NCBI GenBank assembly: GCA_013002285.1
Contig: JABDKJ010000018.1
Location: 7,155-71,154, forward strand
Source: Flavobacteriales bacterium
Lineage (GTDB): Bacteria > Bacteroidota > Bacteroidia > Flavobacteriales > JABDKJ01
Reading direction: 5' to 3'
Length of the DNA stretch: 64,000 bases
Both the position numbers and the translations under genes were made by a program. Shown here one piece after another: positions 2,542-60,860 of the stretch. The notes beneath the pieces were generated by a model. The model had not been told where the DNA came from, ran no database searches, and worked only from the letters and a program-made list of their open reading frames with translations. How positions within the stretch are numbered: position 1 is the stretch's first letter; every line of letters begins with the position of its first letter.

Positions 2542-3911
2542 CAGTAAAGTAAGAATGAAATGTAGAAATAAATGATCAAGCCAAAAATGTCATTCATTGT
2601 AGTAATGAAAGGACCGGTCGCTAAAGCTGGATCTATTTTGACTTTGTCTAAAACTAGTGGCACAAAGGTTCCAAAGAGCCCAGCAAAAATGATCACTATG
2701 AATAAAGAAATACTAACGGTATATGAAAGCGCATAGCCGTTGCCATCTCTACTAATGAACATAGTGATCGCGAAAAGGATCAAAGAAAGAATGATCCCAT
2801 TGACGATGGCGACAAAAAATTCTTTTGTCAAACGTGAAAAGATCGTACCAGTGAAAATGCTTTGGTTTGCAAGTCCTTGAACCACTATAGCTGAAGATTG
2901 TACGCCAACATTTCCGGCCATTGCCGCGATCAATGGGATGAAGAGAGCAAGCTCTGTATATTTAGATAATTGTCCTTCAAATCTGCCTATTACCTGGGCC
3001 ACTAAAACTCCTCCAAGTAGACCTATCAAAAGCCAGGGAAATCGCGCCCGGGTCAATAACCAAACCGAATCATCAGACTCTACGCTTTCAGAAATTCCAC
3101 TTGCTAATTGATAGTCTTTTTCAGCTTCTTCCTGCAGTACATCTACTACATCATCTATGGTAATTCGCCCAAGTAATTCTCCTGTTGTAGAAACTACAGG
3201 AAGAACGACCAAGTCATATTTTTTCATGATCTGGGCTACTTCTTCATTGTCTACTTCAGGTGTTACAGAAATGAGTTCTTCCTTAATGTAAAGGTTCTCT
3301 ATGGTAGATTTCACAGATGTAGAAGAAAACAAGAGCCGTTTTAGTGAAAGCCTTCCGATAAGCTTGTTCTTGTCATCGACAACGTAGATCGTATAGATCT
3401 GGTCGATCTCTCCTGCTTGCTTTCGCATCTCTCGGATTCCTTTGGATACAGTCCAATTGGCATTGACCTTAACTAGCTCTTTTGCCATAAGTCCACCAGC
3501 CGAATCCTCATCATAAGTAAGCAATTGAACAATGTCACTCGCTTGTTCTTCATCTTCAAGTAACGAAATGATCTCTTCTTGTTTCTCCTCTGTCATTTCA
3601 CCAAGGACATCGGCTGCGTCATCTGACTCTATCTGGTCTATCAGTTGCTCTGCGATCTCTTTGCTTGACAGGTCTTCTAGGAATTTTTCGCGAGTGTCTT
3701 CATCGATCTCTAGAAGAACATCAGGAGCAATGTCTTTATCTACAAAACCATAGATATAGGCAGCCTGCTCCATATTGACTATGTCCAACACTTCTGCAAT
3801 ATCTGCAGGATGCAATAAGGCAAGCGTTTCATTGAGCCAAGATCCATTTTCACGTTCTACGGCATATTTGAAATTGTCTATGAGTTCTTTTCCTAGTTCT
3901 AGGCGCTGCAT
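2541..3911 (-). CDS. mgtE: Magnesium transporter MgtE
   Basis: The 456-aa product matches MgtE, a homodimeric inner-membrane Mg2+ channel gated by cytosolic Mg2+. The N-terminal helical MgtE_N domain covers about residues 20-130 with the repeated pattern of leucine-rich acidic helices, two CBS repeats follow at about 140-260, and roughly five transmembrane helices occupy 285-456. The last segments carry the conserved LATGPFITTMNDIFGLIIYF-type pore region, including the Asp of TMNDIFG that coordinates Mg2+ in characterised members. Upstream on the minus strand a TAAATTCG sequence at 3928-3935 resembles the -7 element TAnnTTTG with one mismatch, placing the transcript start close to the ATG. 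The dehydrogenase gene follows directly. Confidence 0.95.
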   Translation of the reverse strand: MQRLELGKELIDNFKYAVERENGSWLNETLALLHPADIAEVLDIVNMEQAAYIYGFVDKDIAPDVLLEIDEDTREKFLEDLSSKEIAEQLIDQIESDDAADVLGEMTEEKQEEIISLLEDEEQASDIVQLLTYDEDSAGGLMAKELVKVNANWTVSKGIREMRKQAGEIDQIYTIYVVDDKNKLIGRLSLKRLLFSSTSVKSTIENLYIKEELISVTPEVDNEEVAQIMKKYDLVVLPVVSTTGELLGRITIDDVVDVLQEEAEKDYQLASGISESVESDDSVWLLTRARFPWLLIGLLGGVLVAQVIGRFEGQLSKYTELALFIPLIAAMAGNVGVQSSAIVVQGLANQSIFTGTIFSRLTKEFFVAIVNGIILSLILFAITMFISRDGNGYALSYTVSISLFIVIIFAGLFGTFVPLVLDKVKIDPALATGPFITTMNDIFGLIIYFYISFLLY

Positions 3912-3976: not shown

Positions 3977-6613
3977 CTACAGTCTTATAAACGTCTTCAT
4001 TACGGAGGTTTTCTCTCCTATAAAAGAAAAGAAATAAGTTCCCTTTGAAAGATCGCCTATTTCCATAGTGTAATTTTCAGAATTTGGTTCTAATTGGATT
4101 GTCTTTACCAGGCGATCGTCTGAGCTGTAAACCCTAACCAGGGTAATATTCTTGTACGATAGTTCTAAACTATTTTCATTTGAAGGGTTTGGATATATAG
4201 AGATCCGATGAGCATTATCGACCTCATTCATTCCAATGGGTGAAGGGATAGTAAAATATTGAAACCCTGATAAAGGCGTTGCAACAATTGGGTCTGTGCT
4301 GCAACCACACCTCACTCTCCACCTATACTCTATGTCATACTCAAAGATGCCACCATTTTGTAAGGGCACGTTTATTGGGTAGTCATTTGTTTCAAAGGGT
4401 GGGGTGGCTGAAAGGATAGTGCCTTCGGGAATGAGATCCGCAAAATTATCGCCCATAGGAGCACTAGCTTCATTCCTTCTGATCTCACATTTATTTGATA
4501 AAGGCACAGGTTCCCAACCGAATTTCACTGAATTGATCATAATATCAGTCGTCAAATTTGTGACCACTTCTTCAAAATCATTTTGCTGGCAGGCGGATTG
4601 ATCCTCTAGCCTAAAGTCATCTAGTTCATAAACTCCTAAGTCTGGGAAAACAACTCTTAGAACACCTTTTCTTTTTGTGGTTTCAAGGTCATAAGTAAAT
4701 GTGTGTTGATACTCTTCCCAATTTGTGCTCAATTCAAAAGTTTCGTCTGAGAAAAAAGCAAGAGGAATGGTATCTTCCAGATATCCCATTCTAATGGATA
4801 AATTTGCGTTTCCTGAATCTATCTTGGCATTGAATTTCAGGTCATAAGTATGACCGTTCTTCAAATGAAGGCTGTGATCCTGTATGTAATCAAAATCTTG
4901 TTCAATTCGTTCGATGACGGCATGTTTATCGCTAATGTTACTGTCATCAATGTAAACAGAATTTGGTCCTGTAATAGATTGGATCGCCCACCCGCTAAAG
5001 TCATGTTCAAAACCACCATATATGAGGTCATTTGTTGGGTCCAGATATAATGCTGTAGTTTGAGTGAGATCTTCAAGAGCACTCCTCAATATCTGTTTTT
5101 CGGACTGGTATGTTGGTTGATAAGCTTGATTTACCCTTTCTTCAGGGTCCATTATTAGATCAAAGAATTCTTCTTCACCACTATTAAAAAGATTAAAACG
5201 AAATGTTCCATTATATATAGAATAGTGTTGATGGTCATTATTCGCAGGTGTTCCATAAGGTATCTCTTCTCTTGTAGTGATCTCTTGAATAACGAAATTG
5301 TTGCCATTCCATGTACCTGAGCCACTATCGACAAGTGGTAAGACAGAATTCCCGTCTAGACCATCAGAGACCTGGTCCAATGCAATATGCTCAATGGTAG
5401 GATATAGATCGATCAGGCTCACGGGTTCATTTACAACCTGGTTTTGGGGTATATCAGGTCCATATATCATCAGGGGTATTTTTGTTGAAGGGCTCCTCAG
5501 TCCATTTTTGTTAGTTATCCTGGCGTATTCTCCTAAGTTTATACCATGGTCACTTGTGAAGATCAAGACAGTATTATCGGCATAGTCACTTGAATCAAGA
5601 GCTGCCATGACCTCGCCTATTTGTTGATCTAGAAAGGATATTGATGCATAATATGCTAACACAAATTTCTTCAACCACAATTGACCCGTTGCTTGCCCTA
5701 CAGATGCTGCTTCGAGAACGGTATAAACAGGTTCGCCTGCCGACCCCCAACTATTGTGAAAAGAAGTTGTTGCAGAACCTAAGATCTCTTCTTCTATATG
5801 TTCCGGAATTTCAATATCATTGATATCATAGAGATCGAAATATTCCTGAGGTGCGTAAAAAGGCAAATGAGGTCTGTAGTACCCTAAAGCCATAAAGAAT
5901 GGATCACTTTGAACTTGACCTAATTCTTCAAGGGCAACTTGGGTTACCAACTCATCAGGCAATGGTTCGAGGATAGAATCACCTTCTATTTCAAATTCTC
6001 CAGTGTTATCAACTATCCAAAAAAGAGAGTCTTGTGCAGGAAACTCAACGATCGGTCCGGCAGATACATAAGGTGGGAATCCTCCATCCGGATTATCAGG
6101 GTGTATAACAGTTTGAGTTCCATTGGTAATGAATGGCCCGTGATTCCATTTAGTATAATTATCAATTGCAGAATTGTATATACTGTCAGGTCCTTCATGA
6201 AAGATCTTGCCAGCTGAGATCGTGCGATATCCGTTAGTTTTTAAATGGCCAAAAATGGAACTGTCTGGGACCAGTTCGGCAAAGTCATACCAAAGATTGA
6301 AATTTTGTTTAAATCCAAAATATCCAGAAGTATGCCCGTATTTGCCACTTAAGAAACTTGCTCTTGAAGGAGCGCATATTGGAAGGTTTGCATGCGCATC
6401 TGAGAACCATGAACTCTTTTCCTGCAAGGCCGCAATGTTAGGTGCTATAACTGGACAGTCAGGAGAATTAAAATCATAATATCTTAAGTCATCACTGACG
6501 ATCAAGATCACATTTTGGTCTTGGCTAAAAGAAGGTTTGGTAAGTAATAATGATGCACACAAAGGCAACAACAATATGATGCTTTTCAATGTTTTTGCGC
6601 TATTATTATTCAT
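3977..6613 (-). CDS. Secreted sulfatase with lectin-like module and T9SS type A sorting domain
   Basis: This 878-aa protein begins with a signal peptide ending near residue 30 (hydrophobic stretch then PSFSQ). The sulfatase domain shows the metal-binding Asp pair in VSDD (D41, D42) and the C80-A-P-S-R84 motif, in which Cys is converted to formylglycine; the DHG motif further on (TSDHGINLGEY) supplies metal ligands. The overall style resembles iduronate-2-sulfatase-like enzymes. A beta-rich segment after about residue 510 (GGFEHDFSGWAI onward) looks like a carbohydrate-binding module. The last 75 residues, starting at ISIYPNPS and ending KTFIRL, are a T9SS type A sorting domain, so the enzyme should be exported and anchored or released at the surface. 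The likely substrates are sulfated polysaccharides, but no other polysaccharide-utilisation gene is adjacent. Confidence 0.92.
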   Translation of the reverse strand: MNNNSAKTLKSIILLLPLCASLLLTKPSFSQDQNVILIVSDDLRYYDFNSPDCPVIAPNIAALQEKSSWFSDAHANLPICAPSRASFLSGKYGHTSGYFGFKQNFNLWYDFAELVPDSSIFGHLKTNGYRTISAGKIFHEGPDSIYNSAIDNYTKWNHGPFITNGTQTVIHPDNPDGGFPPYVSAGPIVEFPAQDSLFWIVDNTGEFEIEGDSILEPLPDELVTQVALEELGQVQSDPFFMALGYYRPHLPFYAPQEYFDLYDINDIEIPEHIEEEILGSATTSFHNSWGSAGEPVYTVLEAASVGQATGQLWLKKFVLAYYASISFLDQQIGEVMAALDSSDYADNTVLIFTSDHGINLGEYARITNKNGLRSPSTKIPLMIYGPDIPQNQVVNEPVSLIDLYPTIEHIALDQVSDGLDGNSVLPLVDSGSGTWNGNNFVIQEITTREEIPYGTPANNDHQHYSIYNGTFRFNLFNSGEEEFFDLIMDPEERVNQAYQPTYQSEKQILRSALEDLTQTTALYLDPTNDLIYGGFEHDFSGWAIQSITGPNSVYIDDSNISDKHAVIERIEQDFDYIQDHSLHLKNGHTYDLKFNAKIDSGNANLSIRMGYLEDTIPLAFFSDETFELSTNWEEYQHTFTYDLETTKRKGVLRVVFPDLGVYELDDFRLEDQSACQQNDFEEVVTNLTTDIMINSVKFGWEPVPLSNKCEIRRNEASAPMGDNFADLIPEGTILSATPPFETNDYPINVPLQNGGIFEYDIEYRWRVRCGCSTDPIVATPLSGFQYFTIPSPIGMNEVDNAHRISIYPNPSNENSLELSYKNITLVRVYSSDDRLVKTIQLEPNSENYTMEIGDLSKGTYFFSFIGEKTSVMKTFIRL

Positions 6614-56275: not shown

Positions 56276-56785
56276 CTATTTATTCTTCACATAAAGGTCC
56301 GTCCACATGGATCTCCATATCTTCCAAGACCCATCTATCTGTTTTCTATATATGGTTGTATTTAAGCCTTTCTGAAGCATTCCGAAGTTTGTAGAGTCTT
56401 TTTTATAATCCCAATCCAGGATCGAACTATGGGTAGTTATGGCTATTGTATCCAGGACCGATAGACTTATTATTTCCGTGGTGAATTCATTGATGATGGT
56501 TTCGGAACTATCATTAGGGAACCAAAAATCCCGGATGTTTTCTTTACCGATCACCGGATCGAATTTGTTGGGTTGGATCTGTGACTTTTCTTCTAAAAGG
56601 CCCATTACTTTATGTTCATCCATCGTTTTCCATCCTTCAATATAATCGGCATGGACCTGTCTGATCATGGACTCATCTTTGCTCATGACGGCATCTACTT
56701 TTCCTTCAAAGTTCTGGCTGCAACTCATTGTAATTAGAAGCAGAAAGATCCCAAGTGCCTGTTTGCCGAATTTGCGATATTGCAT
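56276..56785 (-). CDS. SnoaL/DUF4440-like lipoprotein
   Basis: From ATG 56785 the product is 169 aa and begins MQYRKFGKQALGIFLLLITM with a lipobox ending in SCSQ (Cys22). The mature part fits the SnoaL/DUF4440 fold: a long first helix (MSKDESMIRQVHADYIEGWKTMDEHKVMGLL), then four strands ending SWKIWRSMWTDLY. Members are scaffolds for varied small-molecule binding or reactions; none can be assigned here. The frame is open further upstream, but the extra residues lack signal features. A truncated near-copy of its 5' part lies at 60485-60732. Confidence 0.78.
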   Translation of the reverse strand: MQYRKFGKQALGIFLLLITMSCSQNFEGKVDAVMSKDESMIRQVHADYIEGWKTMDEHKVMGLLEEKSQIQPNKFDPVIGKENIRDFWFPNDSSETIINEFTTEIISLSVLDTIAITTHSSILDWDYKKDSTNFGMLQKGLNTTIYRKQIDGSWKIWRSMWTDLYVKNK

Positions 56786-56812
56786 TTTTTCTGGTCTCGT
56801 CATATATGAAAT
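56538..56812. repeat. Duplicated block, intact copy
   Basis: This 275-base block recurs at 60485-60759 with six mismatches and no gaps by direct comparison (offset 3947 bases), about 98% identical. It covers the first part of the SnoaL-like lipoprotein gene and 27 bases upstream of it. The near-identity implies a recent event. Confidence 0.93.
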
Positions 56813-56835
56813 TACAAAAAGAATGTTTGACACAA

Positions 56836-56863
56836 GGATCACAGATCCGCGAGAGCGGGATCT
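56836..56863 (+). repeat. Twin-hairpin repeat, copy 1 of 4
   Basis: The element reads GGATC-ACA-GATCC (5-bp perfect arms, 56836-56848), overlapping a second hairpin CCGC-GAGA-GCGG (56847-56858) closed by a GNRA-type tetraloop. It lies just after the stop of the leucine-rich-repeat gene (on the minus strand) and 24 bases upstream of the duplicated block. Confidence 0.7.
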
Positions 56864-56868
56864 ATTTT

Positions 56869-57387
56869 TTAGAACACAACTGTTCTGTCCGGAGCTTTCT
56901 TTTTGAAAAGTCCGTATTCCATTTTTAATTGATCTGAAAAATTGTTTTGTTCAATACAGATCATATTAAGGTTTGGTAGTGTTTTGATCCAATGCAGTAT
57001 TTCTCTTCCTCCTTCATCACCGATTCCACAGTCAACTAATCCGAGTTCACAAATTGATGAGGGTAGACTTCTCGCCAGAACGCTTGCTCCCTTATCTCCG
57101 ATCAGGTCATTGTAACTGAAACTTATTGACTGTATTAGATCGCTATTCTTTGCTTTTTCTTGTTTAAGAATGTCACAGATAGCAAGGACGTCATTGGGTT
57201 TCAAACCAAGCTTTCTTAGGTCCAGGGTCCTTGCACGATAACCTTCCTTTTCAAGGCTCTGCGCTTTTTCAATACATTCTGAGTTACCCGTATCTCTTAA
57301 GAGCCTTGCTATTTTTTGATGCACCACAATTTTTAGTTTTATGTCGTCTTGTTTTTGATTGGCTTTCAACATCTGCATAGAAAACAC
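56869..57387 (-). CDS. Leucine-rich repeat protein (RNase-inhibitor type)
   Basis: The 172-aa protein has at least two to three LRR units of the RNase-inhibitor type, with the helix-strand rhythm: TLDLRKLGLKPNDVLAICDIL, ISFSYNDLIGDKGASVLARSL and LGLVDCGIGDEGGREILHWIKTLP, then MICIEQNNF. This LRR class is a protein-binding scaffold more usual in eukaryotic and host-interacting bacterial proteins. No signal peptide is evident, so it should be cytoplasmic unless the start is mis-called. The flanking genes do not suggest a partner. Confidence 0.72.
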   Translation of the reverse strand: MFSMQMLKANQKQDDIKLKIVVHQKIARLLRDTGNSECIEKAQSLEKEGYRARTLDLRKLGLKPNDVLAICDILKQEKAKNSDLIQSISFSYNDLIGDKGASVLARSLPSSICELGLVDCGIGDEGGREILHWIKTLPNLNMICIEQNNFSDQLKMEYGLFKKKAPDRTVVF

Positions 57388-57421
57388 ACCCGAGCCAGCA
57401 AAACAGCATTATTTGAATTGA

Positions 57422-59164
57422 TCATATTCTGCTCTGATAGGTGTGCAGTTCATAATACCTTCCTTCAGATGCCAATAACTGATCATGCGTTCCGCGCTCA
57501 GATATCCTGCCGTCCTCAATAACCAAGATCTGATCTGCTTTGCGGATCGTACTCAATCTATGGGCAATAACGAATGTCGTTCTATTCTTCATTAGTTCGT
57601 TCAAGCTTTTCTGAATATAGGACTCGCTTTCATTATCTAAATTGGATGTTGCCTCATCAAGAATAATGATCTTTGGATCGGCCAGAATAGCTCTTGAGAT
57701 AGAAATTCTCTGGCGCTGTCCCCCAGACAATTTCACCCCTCTTTCACCAATAATAGTGTCCAGTCCATCCTCAAAGCGATCTGTGAATTCATTGACATAT
57801 GCTCCTTTCACTGCTTCTTGCAATTCCTCTTCCGTAGCATCTGGTCTCGGAAAAAGTATGTTCTCTCGAATACTTCCTTCAAAGAGAAAATCATCTTGAA
57901 GTACAACTGCGAGATGCTGTCTGTAACTACTCAAATTCACAGTAGAAAGATCAATTGAATCGATGGTCACTTTGCCCGATCCAGGTTCTAAGAAGGTCGC
58001 TACCAAACCAGCGATCGTAGATTTCCCGGAACCTGATGAACCGACCAAAGCTGTCACGCTGCCCGGTTCAGCTTCAAAAGAAATGTTATGCAATACACCT
58101 TTACTTTCCTCATAGCTAAATGAAACATCTCGAAATTCAATATGTCCTTTAATGTCTTTCAAGATTTCTGTACGGACCTCAGGATCATCTTCTTCTTTCA
58201 TGTTCATCAATTCCTGCGTACGATCCAAACCTGCCATTGCGTCTGTCAGTTGACTTCCAATATTTCCCATTTGAACAATTGGAGCGATCATGAAGCCAAG
58301 TAATAAAGTAAAGGAAAGGAATTCACCCATTGTCATGGTTCCTCCCATCATGAAGTAACCTCCAATACCCATAATTCCAGTAGAAGCAAGGCCGATCAAA
58401 AAGATGGATGAACTACTGATAACAGCGGTTGCCGTTAAACTCTTTTTCACATTCTGGAACAAGCGATCGACACCTTTCTCAAAGTTGGCGTTCTCTTGCT
58501 TTTCAGCATTGAATGCCTTTATTACCCGTACTCCCCCCAAAGTCTCTGTAAGGTTACCTTGAACCTCCGCACTGATCTTACCTCGCTCTCTGAATATAGG
58601 CCTTACATAGCCAAAGGCTTTCAGCATCACAAAAGCAAAGAACAGTATGGGGATCAATACAGAAACGGTCATTATCGGGCTAATTTGAACGAGCAGATAT
58701 ATTGAAGCAATTGAGGTTAGCGTACCTCCAATGAGTTGGACAAAGCCCGTCCCGACAAGATTTCGAACACCTTGAACATCTGTCATTACTCGGGAAACCA
58801 ATGCTCCGGACTTATGATCGTTGAAGAATGAAATGGGCAACTTCAATAGCTTGCTTTGGACCTGCGCTCTCATATGGGAGATCATGAGTTGCGCTTGAAC
58901 ACTGAGTAATCTGGCAAGGCTAAATGATGTTAGAGAACGTATTAAAATTGAAGAAACCACTACAGCTAAAAGAAGCCAAAGCCCATTCATATCTTTATTG
59001 GGGACGATATCGTCAAACAAGAAACGACTTGCATAGGGAGCCACCAAGCCAGCAGCACTTTGAATTAATATTAGAATTAAACCGATCCCAAGCATTCCTC
59101 TTCGGGGCCAAATATATTCTTTGAACGCCCATTTAAAGGATACCTTTTTTTTGTCTTTACGCAT
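57422..59164 (-). CDS. ABC exporter, fused permease and ATPase
   Basis: The 580-aa half-transporter has an N-terminal six-helix membrane domain and an ATPase domain with Walker A GSSGSGKST (375-383), Q-loop VVLQDDFLFEGSIRENI, signature LSGGQRQRISISRAIL, Walker B IIILDEATSNLD and FVIAHRLSTIRKADQIL. It would export a lipid, peptide or drug as a homodimer. The start codon lies inside a perfect 16-base palindrome (59156-59171). It is the second MsbA-type exporter of the window. Confidence 0.9.
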   Translation of the reverse strand: MRKDKKKVSFKWAFKEYIWPRRGMLGIGLILILIQSAAGLVAPYASRFLFDDIVPNKDMNGLWLLLAVVVSSILIRSLTSFSLARLLSVQAQLMISHMRAQVQSKLLKLPISFFNDHKSGALVSRVMTDVQGVRNLVGTGFVQLIGGTLTSIASIYLLVQISPIMTVSVLIPILFFAFVMLKAFGYVRPIFRERGKISAEVQGNLTETLGGVRVIKAFNAEKQENANFEKGVDRLFQNVKKSLTATAVISSSSIFLIGLASTGIMGIGGYFMMGGTMTMGEFLSFTLLLGFMIAPIVQMGNIGSQLTDAMAGLDRTQELMNMKEEDDPEVRTEILKDIKGHIEFRDVSFSYEESKGVLHNISFEAEPGSVTALVGSSGSGKSTIAGLVATFLEPGSGKVTIDSIDLSTVNLSSYRQHLAVVLQDDFLFEGSIRENILFPRPDATEEELQEAVKGAYVNEFTDRFEDGLDTIIGERGVKLSGGQRQRISISRAILADPKIIILDEATSNLDNESESYIQKSLNELMKNRTTFVIAHRLSTIRKADQILVIEDGRISERGTHDQLLASEGRYYELHTYQSRI

Positions 59165-59171
59165 GCGTAAA
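59156..59171. promoter_or_regulatory. 16-base palindrome across the ABC exporter start codon
   Basis: TTTACGCATGCGTAAA is a perfect palindrome whose central CAT/ATG is the exporter start codon (59162-59164). About one such 16-base palindrome is expected by chance in a window of this size, so only its position is suggestive. Confidence 0.3.
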
Positions 59172-59240
59172 TTTAGACGAATATCAAGCCAATATCATTT
59201 CTCTGCCATTTAGACAGAGGATCGGGAGCAGGCTTGGTGG

Positions 59241-59263
59241 AGTTGAAGATCTGCGAGAGTGGG
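59241..59263 (+). repeat. Twin-hairpin repeat, copy 2 of 4 (degenerate)
   Basis: CTGC-GAGA-GTGG (59251-59262) matches the second hairpin with G-U-compatible changes and the same GAGA loop. The first hairpin arms are not recoverable. The preceding AGTTGAAGAT aligns with AGTTGAATTT of copy 4. It lies in the intergenic region between the ABC exporter and the T9SS protein. Confidence 0.5.
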
Positions 59264-59312
59264 ACGCGACCTTACGATCAACAGTTTTAGAATGTGTACA
59301 CTTCTGTTGTAT

Positions 59313-59341
59313 TTGACTAGTTCAAATTACCTCTATTTTAG
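59313..59341 (+). promoter_or_regulatory. Candidate promoter of the T9SS protein gene
   Basis: TTG at 59313-59315 and TATTTTAG at 59334-59341 are 18 bases apart. The -7 differs from TAnnTTTG by one base. A leader of about 40 bases would precede the ATG at 59391. Confidence 0.4.
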
Positions 59342-59390
59342 AATTAGGGTCTTATATTAGTCTTAGATAAACCAATATAATCTGAAACAT

Positions 59391-60281
59391 ATGAAAACTT
59401 CTACCCGAATTTTAGTTACTAGTTTGCTGTGTTTATCTTTCACAATTCTACAAAACGAGAAGGCCAATGCTTGCGTTGACCATGCAACGACCGTTACTGT
59501 GACGTGTCATTACGATACCACGAATTTCACAGATATTGCTTTGACCGTCTCTAACTTGAGGTTGTTTGGAGGAAACCCAAATGAGTTTTGTTCTTGCGCA
59601 GTCACGAGCTGGACAGACATATTTACCGACATATCATACGTAGCATTCGTAGATTCAGGAACAACCATTCCCGTTCCAGGTTTTGATCCTTATGTTGCCG
59701 ATGCTAATGCAACCAGTGCCTGGGAATCAGTGCTAGCGACAGGTGGCTGGAGCGGTTTTGTTTCAGAGGTTAATGGAAATGGATTAACGGCAAATGCCCC
59801 AGTTGAACTCATTATCAGAGCATCCCTGCCCCCGGGTTATACTTATAGTATTTTATATTCTTCTTTCGAAGAAAATTATCTTGGAACTGATGAGTGGGAT
59901 AATACGAGTCAGGACCTAGCTAATTCTCATCAAAACCTTCTCTTTTTAGATATCCCAACATTCATTGTAGTAAACGATGGATCCACTTATTTCACAGATC
60001 TGGATAATGCGATCCTTACAAATGTAGAAATGCTTGGAGCGGAAAAGATCAAGATCTATCCGGTACCTGCTACTAATGAAATTCGTATTCAGTTAAACCA
60101 AGCTGAAATTGAAAACTTAAGTATTTATTCTATTTCCGGTCAGTTGATCAATTCGCATGATCTAACTGCATTTAGGGACGAAGAATACACATTGGATATT
60201 CGTGAGTATTCCTCCGGAATTTATCATGTATTACTTAGATCTTCATCAGGGATCGTAACAGAAAAATTTATGAAGGAGTGA
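59391..60281 (+). CDS. Secreted protein of unknown function with T9SS type A sorting domain
   Basis: The 296-aa protein has a signal peptide (about residues 7-26) and a mature N-terminal region with four cysteines spaced near the start (ACVDH, VTCHYD, EFCSCAV). I do not recognise the domain in residues 30-215; it is beta-rich and acidic. From KIKIYPVPATNEI to the end it is a T9SS type A sorting domain. The gene stands alone, with repeat copies on both sides (copy 2 upstream, copies 3 and 4 downstream). Confidence 0.78.
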   Translation: MKTSTRILVTSLLCLSFTILQNEKANACVDHATTVTVTCHYDTTNFTDIALTVSNLRLFGGNPNEFCSCAVTSWTDIFTDISYVAFVDSGTTIPVPGFDPYVADANATSAWESVLATGGWSGFVSEVNGNGLTANAPVELIIRASLPPGYTYSILYSSFEENYLGTDEWDNTSQDLANSHQNLLFLDIPTFIVVNDGSTYFTDLDNAILTNVEMLGAEKIKIYPVPATNEIRIQLNQAEIENLSIYSISGQLINSHDLTAFRDEEYTLDIREYSSGIYHVLLRSSSGIVTEKFMKE

Positions 60282-60411
60282 TCTCTATTTTCAGTAGACT
60301 ATAATTTACTTAGCTAAAAACTATAGCGAGCTGCTGGGCATGTTAAAAGTGGAATTGTTGGCTCCACAGTTGAGTGAGAATTGATAGAAGGTAAGCGGTA
60401 AGCGTTGACGC

Positions 60412-60439
60412 ACGGATTGCAAATCCGCGCGAGCGGGTT
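60412..60439 (+). repeat. Twin-hairpin repeat, copy 3 of 4
   Basis: GGATT-GCA-AATCC (60414-60426) has perfect arms and overlaps CCGC-GCGA-GCGG (60425-60436), closed by a GNRA loop and extended by AAT/GTT pairing. Relative to copy 1 the arm pair changes from GGATC/GATCC to GGATT/AATCC, which keeps the pairing. Confidence 0.7.
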
Positions 60440-60451
60440 AATTGACCGGGG

Positions 60452-60483
60452 CAACTGGAAGTTGAATTTCCGCGCGAGCGGGT
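60452..60483 (+). repeat. Twin-hairpin repeat, copy 4 of 4
   Basis: CAACT-GGA-AGTTG (60452-60464) has perfect 5-bp arms, followed by AATTT and CCGC-GCGA-GCGG (60470-60481). The end of this copy abuts the duplicated gene fragment (first base 60485). Confidence 0.65.
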
Positions 60484-60484
60484 A

Positions 60485-60732
60485 TTTTCTTTGCCGATCA
60501 CCGGATCGAATTTGTTGGGTTGGATCTGTGACTTTTCTTCTAAAAGGCCCAATACTTTATGTTCATCCATCGTTTTCCATCCTTCAACATAATCCGCATG
60601 GACCTGTCTGATCATGGACTCATCTTTGCTCATGACGGCATCTACTTTTCTTTCAAAGTTCTGGCTGCAACTCATTGTAATTAGAAGCAGAAAGATCCCA
60701 AGTGCCTGTTTGCCGAATTTGCGATATTGCAT
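60485..60732 (-). pseudogene. Truncated copy of the SnoaL-like lipoprotein gene
   Basis: From the ATG at 60732 the frame encodes about the first 80 residues of the 56276-56785 gene (MQYRKFGKQALGIFLLLITM through PNKFDPVIGKEN), with only a few substitutions (for example GKVD to RKVD, ADYI to ADYV, KVMG to KVLG). At 60485 the similarity stops and repeat copy 4 takes over, so the strands of the fold and the C-terminus are missing. The open frame continues to 60343 through unrelated sequence and should not be read as a real protein. Confidence 0.88.
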
Positions 60733-60759
60733 TTTTCCTGGTCTCGTCATATATGAAAT
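60485..60759. repeat. Duplicated block, truncated copy
   Basis: This is the partner of 56538-56812, with six mismatches in 275 bases. Beyond 60759 the two sequences diverge, apart from a shared GTTTGACAC/GTTGACAC further out. Confidence 0.93.
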
Positions 60760-60797
60760 GAAAAATAAAGTGTTGACACGTGGTTTGTATTTTGCTA

Positions 60798-60810
60798 TGT
60801 ACTGAGTACA
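60798..60810. promoter_or_regulatory. Inverted repeat upstream of the fad operon
   Basis: TGTACT-G-AGTACA is a perfect 6-base inverted repeat around a central G, 50 bases ahead of the 18-base palindrome. It may be a second regulator site; nothing in the sequence says whose. Confidence 0.3.
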
Positions 60811-60860
60811 GTTGTTCCTTTTATCTGACACATTCCCCCGTTCGTCTAAATCTTAAATAA

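Follow-up and report, generated by a model that had tools for sequence, protein, structure and literature searches.

The window analysed here is a 64,000-nucleotide (nt) stretch of a Flavobacteriales bacterium genome (assembly GCA_013002285.1, contig JABDKJ010000018.1, positions 7,155 to 71,154) that carries a short repeat, a candidate repetitive extragenic palindromic (REP) element. The repeat family (D2) has four copies of 22 nt in the window (56836, 59241, 60412 and 60452), all on the plus strand. The original prediction had seen a shared motif at these four places in a single orientation, and this is confirmed: RATCCGCGMGAGCGGG, at up to 3 mismatches, occurs at exactly four places when both strands are scanned (0.27 expected), with no mismatch in two and 2 mismatches in the other two, and none of 100 shuffled windows reaches four. 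A CCGCGNGAGCGGG-like block on the plus strand is common to all four sites, which are listed here together with their visibility to R1, a covariance model of the family introduced below.

56831..56861, plus strand: second element, in the same register as the 60409 copy; CAC, A, AGGATC, ACA, GATCCG, C, GAG and AGCGGGAT, with mismatches at the outer stem pair and the middle foot pair.
59241..59264, plus strand: degenerate 3' half GATCTGCGAGAGTGGG, with 2 mismatches and no hairpin; missed by R1 and the weakest of the four.
60409..60439, plus strand: canonical element; foot CGC, A, stem CGGATT, loop GCA, stem AATCCG, C, foot GCG and tail AGCGGGTT.
60452..60483, plus strand: partial element; 3' half TTTCCGCGCGAGCGGGT retained, 5' half different, 2 mismatches; missed by R1.

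By our reading of the gene list, all four sites are intergenic relative to the likely genes, and the density, for the window only, is two good and two partial copies per 64 kb. The 56831-56861 element is flanked by a leucine-rich repeat (LRR)-like open reading frame (ORF) and, on the other side, by what is probably the beginning of a lipoprotein-like gene (its DUF4440 match is below cut-off); the ORF caller extends a GTG-started frame (56276-56842) about 12 nt into it. The 59241 site lies between an ATP-binding cassette (ABC) transporter and a protein with a type IX secretion system (T9SS) sorting domain, and 60409-60483 lies downstream of that T9SS gene, which ends at 60281 on the plus strand. 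TTGAC immediately precedes three of the four sites (56827, 60405 and 60442) and occurs 66 times on the plus strand across the window; its position may be chance or the conserved 5' part of a local subfamily. The Rfam scan of the window gave no match at the gathering score, and no gene for a REP-associated tyrosine transposase (RAYT) was recognised in the annotations of window ORFs of at least 120 amino acids (aa).

RAYT genes do stand next to the element in other genomes. The 20-mer CACGGATTGCAAATCCGCGC (60411-60430, within the 60409 copy), whose chance expectation in the window is 3.6e-8, is found letter for letter next to RAYT genes of G221, G306 and G370, three other genomes of Bacteroidota, so that the proposal of a REP-type element with a RAYT partner gains support through relatives. 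In G221 (locus L230), exact 20-mers lie on both sides of a 184-codon ORF, 63 nt before and 12 nt after it, facing outward. The exact 20-mer follows the RAYT ORF by 39 nt in G306 (L223) and by 36 nt in G370 (L227), and on the opposite side each has a diverged copy at 85-90 nt. The same element flanking a subclass 2.6 RAYT, as expected of a REP of that subclass (group 5), is thus found in other genomes, on both sides in G221 and on one exact side in G306 and G370. The three encoded proteins score 104-112 bits against NF047646 (cut-off 80) and 27-30 bits against the IS200 model (cut-off 55). Their motifs (SH[LI]H, WQ and YIHNNP) fit subclass 2.6, the first HuH letter excepted.

More broadly, the pattern CACGGATTRCAAATCCGCGC, at 2 mismatches, is present in 19 of 296 Bacteroidota genomes, among them G370 (27 places), G306 (12) and G191 (9), and its G form matches the window exactly at 60411-60430. 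The reversed control has no place in the same 296 genomes. Since 209 of these genomes have a Y1 transposase of some kind, the mere presence of such a gene proves little and it is the position that is informative. The exact motif was absent from viral contigs, and the best match in a plasmid and phage search was 28 nt of a Tenacibaculum plasmid (92.9%, E 0.01), the others listed having E 2 or worse.

An alignment of 18 such RAYTs, used as a query against 299 Flavobacteriales genomes, matched in 50 of them (E no worse than 1e-20). A flanking inverted repeat above that of shuffled flanks accompanies 48 of the 72 RAYT hits in the fetched loci; some duplicates remain among the 72 (L118 and L310 represent the same gene, and one L142 gene is split into two hits). 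Many of these repeats follow a common plan: a foot, an A opposite a C, a 5-6 bp stem, a loop of 3-6 nt and the return, often with AGC or AGCGGG next, while the stems themselves differ. Another subtype has A opposite A. Matches to a strict A.C grammar number 49 in 68.8 kb of RAYT flanks (26 of 71 loci) versus 18 in 1.50 Mb of loci L001-L080. Half elements with the 3' half retained and an unrelated 5' arm occur in the upstream flank of L120, L121, L294 and L299, and resemble the window sites at 59241 and 60452.

Compensating change in this family is real. Sites for the pairing test were anchored on the 3' half alone, so they were not chosen for pairing, and G.T pairs were allowed. All six stem positions are paired at 33 of 55 distinct sites beside RAYTs versus 2 of 147 background sites from L001-L080, the 55 having been made distinct and the 147 not. 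The excess of compensating changes that the original prediction called for is therefore present in the wider family. In alignment A2, which holds 31 of 45 distinct elements (6 resembling chance and 8 with a 4-nt loop were left out), both sides change in 8 of 9 pairs, the sequences having been partly chosen by pairing. From A2 we built the covariance model R1, which consists of RAYT-flanking elements of other genomes and includes no window sequence.

R1, run on the window with no filters, finds 60409-60439 at 38.3 bits (E 1.2e-9, R1 E-values being rough) and then 56831-56861 (14.7 bits, E 0.037), with every further place at E 0.83 or worse; the 60452 and 59241 sites are absent among its 10 matches. 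Across the 299 Flavobacteriales genomes, R1 has matches at E up to 0.01 in 31 of 50 RAYT-positive genomes versus 18 of 249 RAYT-negative ones, and without the 15 training genomes in 16 of 35 versus the same 18 of 249, relatedness being ignored in both comparisons. The scan scored at most 24 candidates per genome, which makes its copy numbers lower bounds. A fadJ-like protein in the window has its best relatives mostly in Flavobacteriales and related metagenome-assembled genomes (72% identity). R1 with default filters has no match at E up to 1 in the homologous loci of 26 relatives (480 kb), and a pattern scan of these relatives gave 4 places in 3 genomes that look like chance by their context. 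The relatives' loci offer no empty site for comparison, since the MarR gene alone, among 10 window proteins, regularly adjoins fadJ there.

What, then, is the repeat unit? It had been described as a twin hairpin, a first stem followed by CCGC/GCGG. The second hairpin can form in three copies, yet its columns lack covariation support in the 31 related elements (63.7% paired versus a mean of 65.4% for shuffled columns), and the twin-hairpin structure is rejected. The unit is therefore a single imperfect hairpin, with a foot, an A.C mismatch and a freely varying paired stem, plus an AGCGGG-like tail. The DNA fold predicted for 60405-60440 is this family hairpin, one stem with the A.C mismatch and no second hairpin. 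The fold of 60442-60487 is the pair of hairpins drawn earlier, 56827-56868 prefers a different fold, and 59232-59270 folds no better than shuffles.

The first hairpin had been assigned to every copy. In a scan for perfect arms of at least 4 bp with loops of 3-5 nt, it is present at 56836 (GGATC/ACA/GATCC) and 60412 (CGGATT/GCA/AATCCG), displaced at 60452 (CAACT/GGA/AGTTG) and missing at 59241. CAACT/AGTTG proved not to be the homologue of GGATT/AATCC; its register differs, 5 nt separating its end from the CCGC block, whereas the block overlaps the arm in other copies. Read by its letters in the family register, 60452 has arms TGGAAG/TTTCCG, a 5-nt loop and two G.T pairs. Therefore, the compensated change within the window is limited to one pair (T-A in 60412, C-G in 56836). 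Nor are the four copies equals, given that R1 finds only two and their hairpins differ, and the statement that structure and not sequence is conserved fails for the foot, mismatch and tail, which are conserved in sequence.

We consider it highly likely that the repeat in the window is of REP type and belongs to the class paired with RAYTs of subclass 2.6 (group 5), which are HUH single-strand endonucleases known mainly from Bacteroidota. Sequence and structure show its membership, the family adjoins RAYT genes in other genomes, and pairing is kept despite sequence change. The host probably has a subclass 2.6 RAYT of its own. Several observations weigh against this interpretation. The RAYT link and the copy number are seen in other genomes only; 24 of the 72 RAYT hits have no clear flanking repeat (one of these is untestable); the loose grammar is not significant in the window (1 match versus ~0.8 expected from background); and R1 fits two of the four sites, the second weakly, and finds no minus-strand element as an inverted partner beside them. 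R1 also matches in 18 RAYT-negative genomes and fails to match in 19 RAYT-positive ones; among those 19, at least 5 (G057, G113, G581, G598 and G602) have the A.A subtype, which lies outside the R1 model.

The sections of PMC6006769, PMC2817692 and PMC3733652 that we consulted already describe RAYTs, REPs and subclass 2.6, and a general method gave REP candidates in Flavobacterium genomes (PMC12306157, in part). As characterised in PMC6006769, subclass 2.6 has motifs NH[LIV]H, WQ and YIH[QN]NP, corresponds to group 5 and is mostly found in Bacteroidetes; the secondary structures at its flanks are called "atypical" there and have no GT[AG]G. The present family likewise lies beside WQ and YIH[QN]NP RAYTs in Bacteroidetes, with weak structure and copies elsewhere in the genome. 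Where that description has N as the opening letter of the HuH motif, the three linked RAYTs have S. The foot letters of the two good window copies (CGCAC and CACAA) also lack GT[AG]G, and two of the four window copies form the imperfect palindrome with a paired variable stem. A canonical GTAG REP is rejected, as GT[AG]G is absent directly at the foot.

The Escherichia coli enzyme TnpA-REP (group 2) depends on GTAG and on a stem position that stays unpaired, and its cut falls next to the hairpin (PMC8266576, sections consulted). According to the same sections, the E. coli REP is, like ours, an imperfect hairpin with a mismatch, which must stay unpaired for that enzyme, but it has a GTAG foot and an AA/GC mismatch, whereas the window family has a GCAC or similar foot and an A.C mismatch. 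Inverted REP doublets are termed REPINs or bacterial interspersed mosaic elements (BIMEs; PMC6006769, sections consulted; see also PMC3116915). Elements in G370, G386, G191 and G306 often occur as such outward-facing pairs, with starts 46-98 nt apart. Inverted pairs, common in those genomes, have no counterpart in the window, where copies are single or in direct tandem; with no minus-strand element found by R1, the two inverted REPs of a REPIN are lacking and that label is rejected for the window copies. The subterminal hairpin and the HUH enzyme family recall the ends of IS200/IS605 insertion sequences, but no transposase lies between the window copies and the linked proteins fall below the IS200 cut-off. 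No consensus element for RAYT group 5 was found through literature searches or in the sections consulted, among them those of PMC6006769, whose supplement may list one, and nothing matching was found in the portions of PMC8049555 covered.

How might such an element work? When single-stranded, it would fold into one imperfect hairpin, with a short foot, an A.C mismatch, a free paired stem of 5-6 bp and a loop of 3-5 nt, followed by a conserved tail that is AGCGGG in the window and TATCGGG in the genomes with the most exact copies. By analogy with the E. coli enzyme, a RAYT coded elsewhere would read the foot, mismatch and tail. It may cut the exposed strand close to where the tail ends and join that strand elsewhere, with copies accumulating between genes; both the cutting site and the movement are proposed on this analogy. 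On this view, the two good copies in the window would have arisen by insertion of this kind, and the partial ones would be half copies or copies that have decayed.

The edges of the repeats bear on this proposal, as does a duplication that is the sole recent repeat in the window, its two copies being 95.4% identical over 302 nt (two further weak self-matches link two ABC transporter genes).

56532..56833, strand not specified: duplication copy A, part of the intact lipoprotein-like gene and upstream DNA, ending at the foot of the 56831 element.
60479..60779, strand not specified: duplication copy B, starting at the CGG of the 60452 element's tail.

On the minus strand, the truncated lipoprotein-like gene copy continues in frame through both elements at ~60.4 kb, giving a chimeric open frame of 162 aa (60343-60831). 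The elements could be true but static REPs, copied together with the 302-nt segment by template switching at hairpins and with no active RAYT. Template switching at hairpins requires no partner gene, no RAYT was found among the window ORFs, and both duplication edges lie at hairpin ends, sharing CGG or foot letters. We nevertheless judge this very improbable. Conservation among copies (22 in G370, 10 in G306, and 8 in G191 with G386) runs from ~10 nt before the 20-mer to ~7 nt after it. Those RAYT-genome loci have 33 self-repeats, 19 of which contain the element, and 13 of the 19 have their tail-side end 4-14 nt beyond the 20-mer, consistent with a fixed cutting site; the other 6 have no such end (5 in L227, 1 in L229), and overlapping tandem copies are counted more than once. 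The 302-nt duplication is one event, and template switching could also be its source.

The preferred reading, a RAYT-paired REP, can be extended. It is conceivable, although rather doubtful, that elements of subclass 2.6 RAYTs also move or copy host DNA between element ends; the element would then behave like the end of a one-ended single-strand transposon and shuffle pieces of genes. The idea derives from the 302-nt copies, bounded by the foot of one element and the tail of another, and from tail-joined units in L228 (G221). There, at 3267-3447 and 5342-5710, tandem units consist of ~165 nt of passenger DNA plus the element, with tail-to-start junctions; in the last unit, an insertion in the hairpin loop interrupts the hairpin.

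It is very improbable that the sites are primarily intrinsic terminators, in which the CCGC/GCGG hairpin and T-rich DNA end transcription and the REP likeness is secondary. A terminator scan does list 56846-56859 and 60469-60482 (plus strand), and 60469 is downstream of the plus-strand T9SS gene. But the scan has 6 matches versus 4.1 expected, the canonical 60409 copy has no T run and is not among them, and the genes left of 56846 are on the minus strand for more than 2 kb. Termination would also rely on the hairpin that lacks covariation support and would leave the 20-mer beside RAYT genes unexplained. That the element is a tRNA-Cys fragment or relic, GGATTGCAAATCC also being an anticodon arm, is scarcely credible: several phage matches to the 60405-60442 piece are annotated as tRNA-Cys (E 2 or worse), but neither the window nor the 41 loci that brought in the motif have a tRNA, or a tRNA fold around the anticodon arm, and the family's stems vary widely, against such an origin.

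Related repeats also occur between Rhs-like and neighbouring small ORFs in L229 (G178), whose ORFs we take to be Rhs-like, and in L311 (Tenacibaculum finnmarkense plasmid CP116296.1, by the record's annotation). L229 has several repeats in one orientation, 1-3 kb apart. In both loci, the repeats may mark module borders in toxin-immunity arrays.

With the same anatomy of foot, A.C mismatch, free stem and tail at many Flavobacteriales RAYT loci, these repeats can be annotated, and the letters that the enzyme probably reads are indicated. Cutting at the tail becomes testable, and the parallel with the mismatch needed by the E. coli enzyme is directly testable. If the elements also fix where duplicated gene pieces begin and end, they would constitute a source of gene shuffling within Bacteroidota.

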